This document shows, in pieces, positions 6,283 to 53,312 of a stretch of 64,000 bases of DNA. The translations under genes were made by a program, and so were the position numbers. Source of the stretch: Pediococcus acidilactici DSM 20284 (GTDB lineage Bacteria; Bacillota; Bacilli; Lactobacillales; Lactobacillaceae). The stretch spans positions 1,758,860 through 1,822,859 of the forward strand of contig NZ_GL397067.1 of NCBI RefSeq assembly GCF_000146325.1, given 5' to 3'. Each line of letters opens with the position of its first letter. Position 1 is the stretch's first letter. The notes below the pieces were generated by a model, which was given only the letters and a program-made list of their open reading frames with translations, had not been told where the DNA came from and made no database searches.

Positions 6283-6342
6283 TTAACAAGATTGACCACC
6301 ACGATGTTTACCTAGTAGTTTAACTAATCTTTCATTCACCAT
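6283..6342 (-). CDS. Possible 19-residue small ORF between attenuator and tcyP
   Basis: ATG with AGGA nine bases upstream, then 19 codons (MVNERLVKLLGKHRGGQSC) ending in a Cys codon directly before TAA. It lies after the terminator hairpin and 59 bases before tcyP. It could be a second regulatory uORF or chance; nothing beyond the ribosome binding site supports translation. Confidence 0.3.
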   Translation of the reverse strand: MVNERLVKLLGKHRGGQSC

Positions 6343-6357
6343 AATTTTTCTTCCTAA

Positions 6358-6394
6358 CTAAAAAGAGTTGGGATCTATTCAAATAGACCCCAAC
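6358..6394 (-). terminator. Intrinsic terminator in the tcyP leader (proposed attenuator)
   Basis: On the minus strand GTTGGGGTCTATT and AATAGATCCCAAC form a 13-pair stem (one G-U) followed by CTCTTTTTAG. No gene needs a terminator here: coaA has its own at 6787-6825, and the only downstream gene is tcyP. This makes it a candidate attenuator. The reverse orientation also has a short T run. Confidence 0.8.
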
Positions 6395-6414
6395 CCCTTT
6401 TGCACGTCAAAAAA

Positions 6415-6442
6415 ATTATATAGAAGGTGTGTTGATGATCAA
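6415..6442 (-). promoter_or_regulatory. Possible sigma-A promoter inside the tcyP leader
   Basis: TTGATC (6442-6437), 16 bases, TATAAT (6420-6415) on the minus strand. A transcript from here would start just before the terminator hairpin and lack the Cys leader peptide. It overlaps the segment proposed to act in attenuation, so the match may be partly coincidental. Confidence 0.45.
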
Positions 6443-6517
6443 TATGAATTGCCCTTAAGATCCAAATAAGCTGGTTCGCTAACAAATAAGGGAATCCATA
6501 ATTTGATCACTTATTCA

Positions 6518-6550
6518 TTAGACTGATATCAAACAACAACACATCTTCAT
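6518..6550 (-). CDS. Leader peptide with three consecutive Cys codons (MKMCCCLISV)
   Basis: A 10-codon ORF with a strong ribosome binding site GAGGAG nine bases before ATG, three TGT codons at positions 4-6 and a TAA immediately followed by TGA. It lies 124 bases upstream of a terminator hairpin on the same strand and about 300 bases before the cystine transporter gene. The base run TGTGTTG over codons 3-5 is complementary to CAACACA at 6434-6428, which in turn neighbours a segment able to pair with the terminator's 5' arm. This is the layout of ribosome-stalling amino-acid attenuators. It is too short for ordinary ORF calling; its function is inferred from layout. Confidence 0.7.
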   Translation of the reverse strand: MKMCCCLISV

Positions 6551-6949: not shown

Positions 6950-7867
6950 CTACACGCGCACTAAGATGTTGTCCATCACGTGCCCCTCCGTTTTGTGTAG
7001 AATCATATCGGCTCTAAAACGGGTTGGCAAAATGTATTCTTTTAAATTTTTCAAATCGATATCGCGCCAAATTTTTTTAGCGTAGGCAAAGGCTTCTTCC
7101 CGTGGCATCTGGGCGTACTGGTAGTAATAATTGCTCGGATCGTGGAATGCCGTATCCAATAACACGCCGAACCGTTCCAGGAACCATTTTTCAATCAAGT
7201 CCGCTTCCGCATCCACGTAAATCGACCAATCGAAAAAGTCGCTAACGTAAATCGTTTCGTTAGCCGGTAATTGGAGTACGTTAATGCCTTCCACAATTAA
7301 AATATCTGGCTGATCAATTACGTCATATTCATCCTTGATGACGTCATAAACTTGGTGTGAATACTTCGGCACCTTGATCTGTTTTTGGCCCGTTTTCACC
7401 GCGTTTAAAAAGTGGATTAATTCCTTCATGTTGTAACTTTCAGGAAATCCCTTCCGACTCATTAAATGACGCCGCTTTAATTCAGCATTAGGGTATAAAA
7501 AGCCATCCGTAGTAATCAACTGGGTCTTTAAATCGCTAAACCAGTTGCTTAACAACACTTGCAATAGGCGCGCAGTGGTGCTTTTACCTACCGCTACGCT
7601 TCCCGAAATTCCTACAATAAACGGCGTTTTTTTAACTGGAATCTGTAAAAAGTCCAGTTTATCGCGGTTCCATTTTTCAAAATCAGCGTACTTCTTCTGC
7701 AGTAACCGTACCAGTGGAACGTAAACGTCCTGGACGTCCTCTAAGGAAATCCGGTCGTTAAGCGCCTTAATGTCGGCTAATTGCTGCTGAGTCAGCGGTA
7801 ATTCTGCCCGATTTGATAAATTTTGCCACGCGGTGCGGTCAAACGTGAAATATCCTTGTGCCTGCAT
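6950..7867 (-). CDS. coaA: Type I pantothenate kinase
   Basis: Phosphorylates pantothenate, the committed step of coenzyme A synthesis in the cytosol. The 305-residue length fits the family. Walker A is GSVAVGKST (89-97) in a PRK/URK-type P-loop domain; downstream come TTDGFLYPN and the [10 protein letters not shown] strand characteristic of bacterial CoaA. The start ATG at 7867 has GAGGA upstream. The gene begins 35 bases after aldC and probably ends the alsS-aldC-coaA transcript. Confidence 0.95.
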
Positions 7868-53143: not shown

Positions 53144-53312
53144 TAAACCGGTCATCAGCAAAATTGCTGAATTGGTCGTTGAGTGGCTCACACACCCAAA
53201 TTGACCCACACCTACAAAATCCGGTAGTTAATGTGTGCCGGTGAAATGGTCACTAGTCGCCGCAGCGAAACAGCCGAAGCTGCCTGACCCATCTCGACTC
53301 ATCGCATGTAAC
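53144..53312 (+). repeat. Possible degenerate member of the 3'-end element family
   Basis: The gap between the terminator and the DedA gene holds no ORF. It contains small inverted repeats (GGTCATCAGC.. / GCTGCCTGACC and ATCAGCA / TGCTGAAT) and ends in CCCATCTCGACTCATCGCA, close to the closing box of element copy 2 (CACGTCTCGACTATCTCGCA) and in the same orientation relative to the upstream gene. The helical core and GGGU bulge are not clear. Confidence 0.35.

Follow-up and report, generated by a model that had tools for sequence, protein, structure and literature searches.

Leader-peptide attenuators for trp and his are known in enterobacteria. The accessible parts of later papers describe a Leu-rich leader ahead of ilv in Staphylococcus aureus (PMC5794164) as well as His leaders in Bacillus and other bacteria (PMC2965389; PMC9413887). 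For cysteine, leaders with Cys codons were predicted in mycobacteria (PMC1262725), and polycysteine short ORFs of these bacteria are cysteine-responsive (Canestrari 2020, via PMC9094748 and PMC13236596, according to the accessible text). In Rhodobacterales the uORFC-8-2 motif ahead of cysS was predicted to be a Cys-codon uORF attenuator (PMC8632094, accessible section on this motif).

The window analysed here is a stretch of 64,000 nucleotides from Pediococcus acidilactici DSM 20284. Its minus strand harbours a leader ahead of tcyP (Table 1) that very probably acts by ribosome-mediated transcription attenuation in response to charged tRNA-Cys. Such Cys-codon attenuation ahead of a cystine importer had been proposed in a sequence-only reading, with comparison of relatives as the check, and it is supported here: both the Cys codons and the complementary segments are kept in relatives. 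The 10-codon ORF MKMCCCLISV behind its Shine-Dalgarno (SD) sequence and the terminator with T run upstream of tcyP, as named in that reading, were confirmed at the positions in Table 1. Its pairing of segments 1 and 2 is right and extends further than noted, over 18 alignment columns. The antiterminator pairing of segments 2 and 3 exists as well, but the part described covers the lower half of the helix, which extends further and reaches the terminator loop. Four elements were absent from that reading: helix a:a', helix b:b', a second leader ORF (uORF2) and the extended -10 element.

Like the amino acid attenuators mentioned above, the leader combines an SD-led short ORF, consecutive codons that match the pathway's amino acid, helices that exclude one another and an intrinsic terminator. 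Unlike these, it precedes a gene predicted for cysteine/cystine import, its antiterminator engages the loop as well as the upper arm of the terminator, and it has an extra helix starting at the leader stop codon and a second conserved leader ORF. It shares the run of Cys codons in a short upstream ORF with the mycobacterial ORFs, which in the accessible parts of the sources are leaderless, have no terminators and precede cys biosynthesis operons, whereas the ORF studied here is SD-led, is followed by a terminator and an antiterminator, and belongs to transport genes. Tandem Cys codons in a uORF, a stem that includes them, a U-tract terminator and predicted attenuation are common to this leader and the uORFC-8-2 motif, which differs in having two stems, in its phylum and gene, and, in the accessible section on it, in having no second ORF. 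The leader would place ribosome-mediated attenuation with a cysteine signal in Lactobacillaceae, where T-boxes usually act. Lactobacilli are often thought to depend on external cysteine, and the leader would therefore give a direct handle on cysteine sensing.

Table 1 Features of the tcyP leader in the P. acidilactici window
Feature	Position	Strand	Basis or remark
Extended -10 TGATACACT, predicted, for the leader transcript	6589-6581	minus	39 nt before the leader ATG
GAGGAG, Shine-Dalgarno of uORF1	6565-6560	minus	Read from sequence; 9 nt 5' of ATG
uORF1 ATGAAGATGTGTTGTTGTTTGATATCAGTCTAA = MKMCCCLISV, 10 codons	6550-6518	minus	294 nt upstream of tcyP
Segment 1, Cys codons; partner is segment 2	6543-6526	minus	10-leader alignment
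Arm a, 5' arm of the helix starting at the uORF1 stop codon	6521-6510	minus	10-leader alignment, folding snapshots
Arm b, 5' arm of the competing helix b:b'	6502-6488	minus	10-leader alignment
Arm a', 3' arm; first bases common to b	6490-6479	minus	10-leader alignment
Arm b', 3' arm; overlaps the antiterminator strand	6456-6442	minus	10-leader alignment
Antiterminator strand AATTCATATTGATCATCAAC	6450-6431	minus	Partner is the upper 5' arm and loop of the terminator (6394-6377)
Segment 2, partner of the Cys codons	6445-6428	minus	10-leader alignment
Intrinsic terminator (attenuator) with T run, hairpin AAAAGGGGTTGGGGTCTATTTGAATAGATCCCAACTCTTTTT	6401-6360	minus	Folding, -24.7 kcal/mol
AGGAAG, Shine-Dalgarno-like, of uORF2	6355-6350	minus	Read from sequence
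uORF2, second leader ORF MVNERLVKLLGKHRGGQSC	6342-6283	minus	Between terminator and tcyP
tcyP, predicted cystine symporter, 461 aa	6223-4838	minus	Pfam SDF, annotated relatives

The protein encoded behind the leader matches the Pfam family SDF (E 8.9e-94), and its closest annotated relatives, found in plasmid records, are L-cystine transporters sharing 54% identity. It scores far below the cut-offs of the NCBIfam models for glutamate, C4-dicarboxylate and Ser/Thr transporters. The gene is TcyP-like, in agreement with its earlier naming as tcyP, and cystine is its predicted substrate. The predicted function of this gene and the terminator placed before it both count for attenuation by Cys codons.

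Homologous cassettes occupy 11 loci from three genera of Lactobacillaceae, ahead of tcyP at three of them and ahead of a gene for an NlpA/MetQ-like binding protein at eight. All 11 contain two to four consecutive Cys codons, while the N-terminal length of the leader peptide varies; the last Cys codon lies 4 codons from the stop in seven cassettes, 5 in two, 3 in one and 2 in one. An SD sequence with a short ORF can be read in the window leader and in its relatives, translation being predicted. In a genus comparison of 12 genomes a close tcyP occurred in one other species only (G001), with 92% identity to that of the window and an identical leader peptide. Lactobacillus acetotolerans (L010 = L046) carries MKMCCCIMSK ahead of tcyP and F. 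lindneri (L038 = L045) MKMCCCFMSKK ahead of the NlpA/MetQ-like gene; uORF1 of six further loci contains CC or CCC. The TcyP of L. acetotolerans is 71% identical to that of the window versus 57-59% to other TcyP proteins from its genus, suggesting that gene and leader were transferred laterally.

These loci were collected by several searches. A DNA pattern scan gave six stretches, two of them in lactobacilli (L045 of F. lindneri and L046 of L. acetotolerans); the other four, in unrelated bacteria, were judged chance matches by organism and peptide. The pattern ATGAARATGTGYTGYTGY had five matches in 397 family genomes, of which the one in G091 was rejected since it lies inside a long ORF. A covariance model (R1), built from 10 leaders, recovered these 10 in the 397 genomes together with one new locus that had not been among them, G127 (E 3.4e-15). 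This cassette, from the genus of F. lindneri, has the leader MKTCCCCMSK and an NlpA/MetQ-like gene; uORF2 was not found in it. The sole other R1 match in the window genome is the same place on the opposite strand. Among weaker R1 matches L098, the best (E 9.6e-6) and the one inspected, has no Cys leader; L099-L106 and the unlisted remainder were left out. A TcyP protein search of the whole genome-contig collection gave no confirmed relatives. The remaining six loci came from a search with the uORF2 peptide; all belong to the genus of F. lindneri, and in each of them uORF2 is preceded by a Cys-run ORF and a terminator, although neither had been used in that search. Five cassettes (window, G001, L. 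acetotolerans, F. lindneri and G127) had been located independently of uORF2, and four of these contain it.

The NlpA/MetQ-like gene of the eight cassettes was identified by Pfam on the G210 protein and by likeness in the remaining ones. At L011 and L012 the ORF immediately before tcyP looks by eye like one for a binding protein of the NlpA type. In G241 (L054, L084 544-2185) the cassette and the NlpA/MetQ-like gene are followed by a gene nearest to those of cystine-binding proteins, its product scoring 156 of 312 bits and thus under the curated cut-off. The gene after the NlpA-like one is an HTH-like ORF in G210, G150 and G226 and an opposite-strand gene in G036. Since these next genes differ, the substrate of the NlpA-like protein is only putative.

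Upstream of the leader, a strong terminator-like hairpin (6829-6791, minus strand) follows a gene (6950-7867) which we take to be coaA-like; with this hairpin in place tcyP probably forms its own transcription unit. It was the sole site listed by a consensus scan for terminator-like sites. Hairpin 6401-6360 was absent, probably because its T run is absorbed in the A-U part of the stem. A generic sigma-70 scan did not pick the extended -10 element of the leader. A regular expression for this element, composed after the sequences had been seen, matches in 8 of 10 leaders; in its place TATACT lacking the TG is seen in L. acetotolerans, and in G036 no extended -10 was found in the 80 nt inspected. 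In G127, TGATATACT was found by eye at this site. Transcription of tcyP mainly from a promoter 3' of the terminator, which would make the leader a relic, is hardly credible. A weak sigma-70-like site (6273-6246, 9/12) does lie downstream of the terminator, but with a second one upstream of it (6442-6415, 10/12) such sites number two, at the shuffled mean of 2.9, and conservation across genera extends to the leader, its extended -10 and both ORFs.

The RNA structure of the leader was studied by folding and in an alignment of 10 leaders (A3) with four groups of helices. In the window, the region 6340-6500 folds at -51.8 kcal/mol (z -5.94), and none of 200 shuffles was equally low. The helices form two sets. 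The OFF set consists of helix 1:2, between the Cys codons and the downstream segment, helix b:b' and the terminator. The ON set consists of helix a:a', starting at the leader stop codon, and the antiterminator, a duplex formed by AAUUCAUAUUGA plus its 3' flank with the loop and upper arm of the terminator. In the OFF set 84.0% of the alignment cells are paired, versus 40.8-48.3% when the strands are slid, and 18 of 42 pairs show changes on both sides; its covariation is 0.363 versus 0.228 +/- 0.018 in shuffled alignments, none of 500 being as high. The ON set has 78.7% of cells paired versus 29.2-45.7% slid, both-side changes in 8 of 30 pairs and a covariation of 0.190 versus 0.120 +/- 0.016 (0/500 as high); its further pair types are not above the shuffles (216/500) and its number of pairs with both-side changes was matched in 16/500. 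The helices were picked by eye on the same sequences, and the slide control is therefore partly biased in their favour. Values per helix are 18 pairs with 75.6% of cells paired and 4 pairs with both-side changes for 1:2; 10 pairs counted, 91.0% and 3 for b:b'; 14, 89.9% and 11 for the terminator; 12, 78.3% and 3 for a:a'; and 18, 78.9% and 5 for the antiterminator. Columns 24, 132, 175 and 201, representing the third base of a Cys codon, segment 2 and both terminator arms, are linked by U-A, C-G and U-G changes. The antiterminator duplexes range from -9.6 to -15.8 kcal/mol in all 10 leaders, each being equalled by 0 to 21 of 500 shuffles. That of the window (-15.8 kcal/mol) is reached by 15 of 500 shuffles, so the window alone is only suggestive. 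When antiterminators and terminators were swapped between species the cognate pairs did not stand out, because the antiterminator strand itself is conserved. Antiterminator and anti-antiterminator are mutually exclusive and are conserved with compensatory changes.

These data bear on the suggestion that the Cys-run ORF is translated but that control is translational or Rho-dependent, the hairpin 6401-6360 being a plain terminator or processing site. Mycobacterial Cys leaders offer a precedent, since in the accessible parts of the sources they are without terminators (PMC1262725) and are described as translational attenuators (PMC13236596), and the consensus scan had missed the hairpin. However, the hairpin and its T run are conserved, with compensatory changes at the 11 of 14 pairs mentioned above, and so is the complementary antiterminator strand. 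Furthermore, in a finer scan each of the 13 other Cys leaders ahead of tcyP, treated below, has a terminator after its Cys ORF (5/13 in a coarser one). Control of this other kind is improbable, and transcription attenuation is the reading followed here.

From the elements, their conservation and the compensatory changes, all of them observed, we infer a kinetic order of events, read-through and a response to cysteine as follows. Without translation, or just after departure of the ribosome, segment 1 would pair with segment 2, aided by b:b'; together these helices would hide the antiterminator strand, so that the terminator forms and tcyP is left untranscribed. When charged tRNA-Cys is scarce the ribosome would stop on the Cys codons, 2-5 codons ahead of the stop codon, covering segment 1 and leaving the stop-codon region free. 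Helix a:a' could then form once transcribed and take the edge of b, and the freed antiterminator AAUUCAUAUUGA.. would anneal to the loop and upper 5' arm of the terminator, allowing polymerase to continue through uORF2 into tcyP. With the ribosome at the stop codon, arm a would instead be covered, in which case b:b' can form and mask half of the antiterminator strand. The helix at the leader stop codon thus probably reads the position of the ribosome, a design that departs from the textbook four-segment case.

Folding with the ribosome at different positions is in part consistent with this model. In snapshots of the RNA up to a', with the ribosome at the last Cys codon, a:a' has 6.4-12.9 expected pairs in all 10 leaders, versus at most 0.1 in 9 of 10 with the ribosome at the stop codon (5.2 in G226). 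When a:a' is kept the antiterminator reaches 10.3-15.2 pairs in 10 of 10 leaders. Without a ribosome a:a' forms too, in 9 of 10. With no ribosome on the RNA, equilibrium folding hides the antiterminator strand in nine of the 10 leaders and leaves it free in G226 (12.3). Mean numbers of antiterminator pairs at equilibrium are 9.1 with the ribosome at the first Cys codon (at least 5 in 7/10), 6.9 at the last Cys codon (at least 5 in 5/10) and 8.8 at the stop codon (at least 5 in 9/10). Upon a stall at the first Cys codon, the window (2.9 pairs), F. lindneri (0.8) and G210 (1.7) show no switching at equilibrium. Equilibrium folding alone cannot separate a Cys stall from a ribosome at the stop codon, and the distinction therefore rests on kinetics and a short dwell at the stop; the switch, if real, would be kinetic. 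G127, which was not used to build R1, has 1.6 antiterminator pairs without ribosome, 15.4 and 13.3 with the ribosome at the first and last Cys codon and 5.0 at the stop codon, and an antiterminator duplex of -13.0 kcal/mol matched by 2 of 500 shuffles.

Leaders ahead of tcyP were surveyed in 301 family genomes, 32 of which had a match at E <= 1e-60; 30 loci were read, G126 and the split G195 being left out. An SD-preceded short ORF with adjacent Cys codons was found in 16 of the 30 upstream regions, in six genera, where dinucleotide shuffles give 0.89 expected. For other residues the top counts were 12/30 (Ser-Ser) and 6/30 (Ile-Ile). Thirteen of the 16 are other types of leader, such as MFNVRQANSCCCNCQK.. 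in seven Lactobacillus loci. In these 13 the pairing of segments 1 and 2 is absent, and duplexes with the Cys run are no better than shuffles except in L025 (10/200); they are a separate, looser set. Within this set (L023, L026-L028, L030-L032, L020, L022, L024, L025, L029 and L013) at least five unrelated-looking Cys-rich leader ORFs with terminators can be told apart, which look like separate origins of the same device. The sequence-only reading had known of no such attenuator for a cystine importer in lactobacilli. Its view of the literature holds in that no paper on a Cys leader in lactobacilli was among the matches listed, subscription literature being mostly outside coverage, and that the terms leader peptide, attenuation and tcyP are absent from the text of a regulon survey of lactic acid bacteria (PMC3616900). 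The setting itself is not isolated, as Cys-run leaders precede tcyP in six Lactobacillaceae genera.

T-boxes do control some tcyP genes of Lactobacillaceae. A T-box motif is present in 4 of the 30 upstream regions, and the Rfam T-box model (RF00230) exceeds its gathering score at L021 (103.5 bits) and stays below it at L018, L015 and L017 (79.6, 57.8 and 57.0 bits). These leaders act on the same gene, probably with the same signal, uncharged tRNA-Cys (putative specificity), but read the tRNA directly, without an ORF. In related genera the same transporter gene is thus found under either device, attenuator or T-box. A metabolite riboswitch or T-box might accordingly be considered for the window leader as well, its short ORFs being incidental, and the strong conservation of the primary sequence AATTCATATTGA would fit; this conservation is explained by the four pairing partners of the strand. 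However, no Rfam family, RF00230 included, reached its gathering score in the window leader, nor did any in L002, L010, L038, L053 or L055-L058, and the Cys codons are retained in 11 of 11 cassettes, which makes this explanation very unlikely indeed compared with Cys-codon attenuation. Elsewhere in the window, distant from the leader, Rfam places a Ref68 / Lacto-3 RNA (RF02840) at 53182-53306 (minus strand, 92.4 bits).

The second leader ORF, uORF2, is present between terminator and gene in 10 of the 11 cassettes, those of G001, L. acetotolerans and F. lindneri as well as that of the window among them. With these four peptides as queries, 301 family genomes yielded 10 strong matches (E 1.8e-13 to 5.8e-8). 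The hit ranked below them (E 0.006, window genome) was rejected as chance, lying out of frame within a gene resembling cysS. In the genus of F. lindneri 7 of 10 genomes contain the peptide, and in the genus Lactobacillus 1 of 75. Across 299 phylum genomes none was found beyond the window, apart from one match at E 0.007 that lies within a reading frame of 123 residues. In Pfam and NCBIfam no family matched uORF2, the best NCBIfam hit (E 0.083) being far under the cut-off. All 8 distinct peptides agree at nine residues (N, L, L, G, K, R, G, G and C) and share the motif GK[YHF]RGGx[SAT]C; in 7 of 10 sequences the single Cys immediately precedes the stop codon. Over 45 pairs of the 10 sequences pS is 0.740 and pN 0.185, while pN/pS is 0.351/0.371 and 0.343/0.266 in the other two frames. 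Selection on uORF2 is strong and acts on the peptide rather than on the RNA. A translational role by way of a helix over the tcyP start was considered and rejected: accessibility of the SD sequence shifts in no single direction over 10 loci, rising from 0.04 to 0.62 in G036 only. RNAalifold found no conserved structure from uORF2 to the gene start (-1.09 kcal/mol, 8 pairs). Given the lack of both a consistent accessibility shift and a conserved structure, no RNA mechanism is claimed for uORF2.

Among known systems, TnaC-type arrest peptides (PMC10941005, accessible part) are close counterparts of uORF2. In common with TnaC, uORF2 is short, is selected at the level of its peptide and often carries a key residue immediately ahead of its stop codon, arrest being putative for uORF2. 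A further step, through its peptide, would be added by uORF2, and a two-stage sensor is conceivable, though rather doubtful. Here uORF1 would read charged tRNA-Cys by codon and set transcription, uORF2 would act as a nascent-peptide sensor after read-through, and the pair would move between genes as one cassette; arrest or release at uORF2, perhaps tuned by free cysteine, sulfide or redox, would set translation or decay of the transporter mRNA. As a short and strongly conserved peptide, uORF2 could be a new cysteine-linked arrest peptide; it is the most novel part of the leader and could make the system more than a cysteine attenuator. The Cys codon of uORF2 is UGU in all 10 sequences, while synonymous sites elsewhere in this ORF vary freely.
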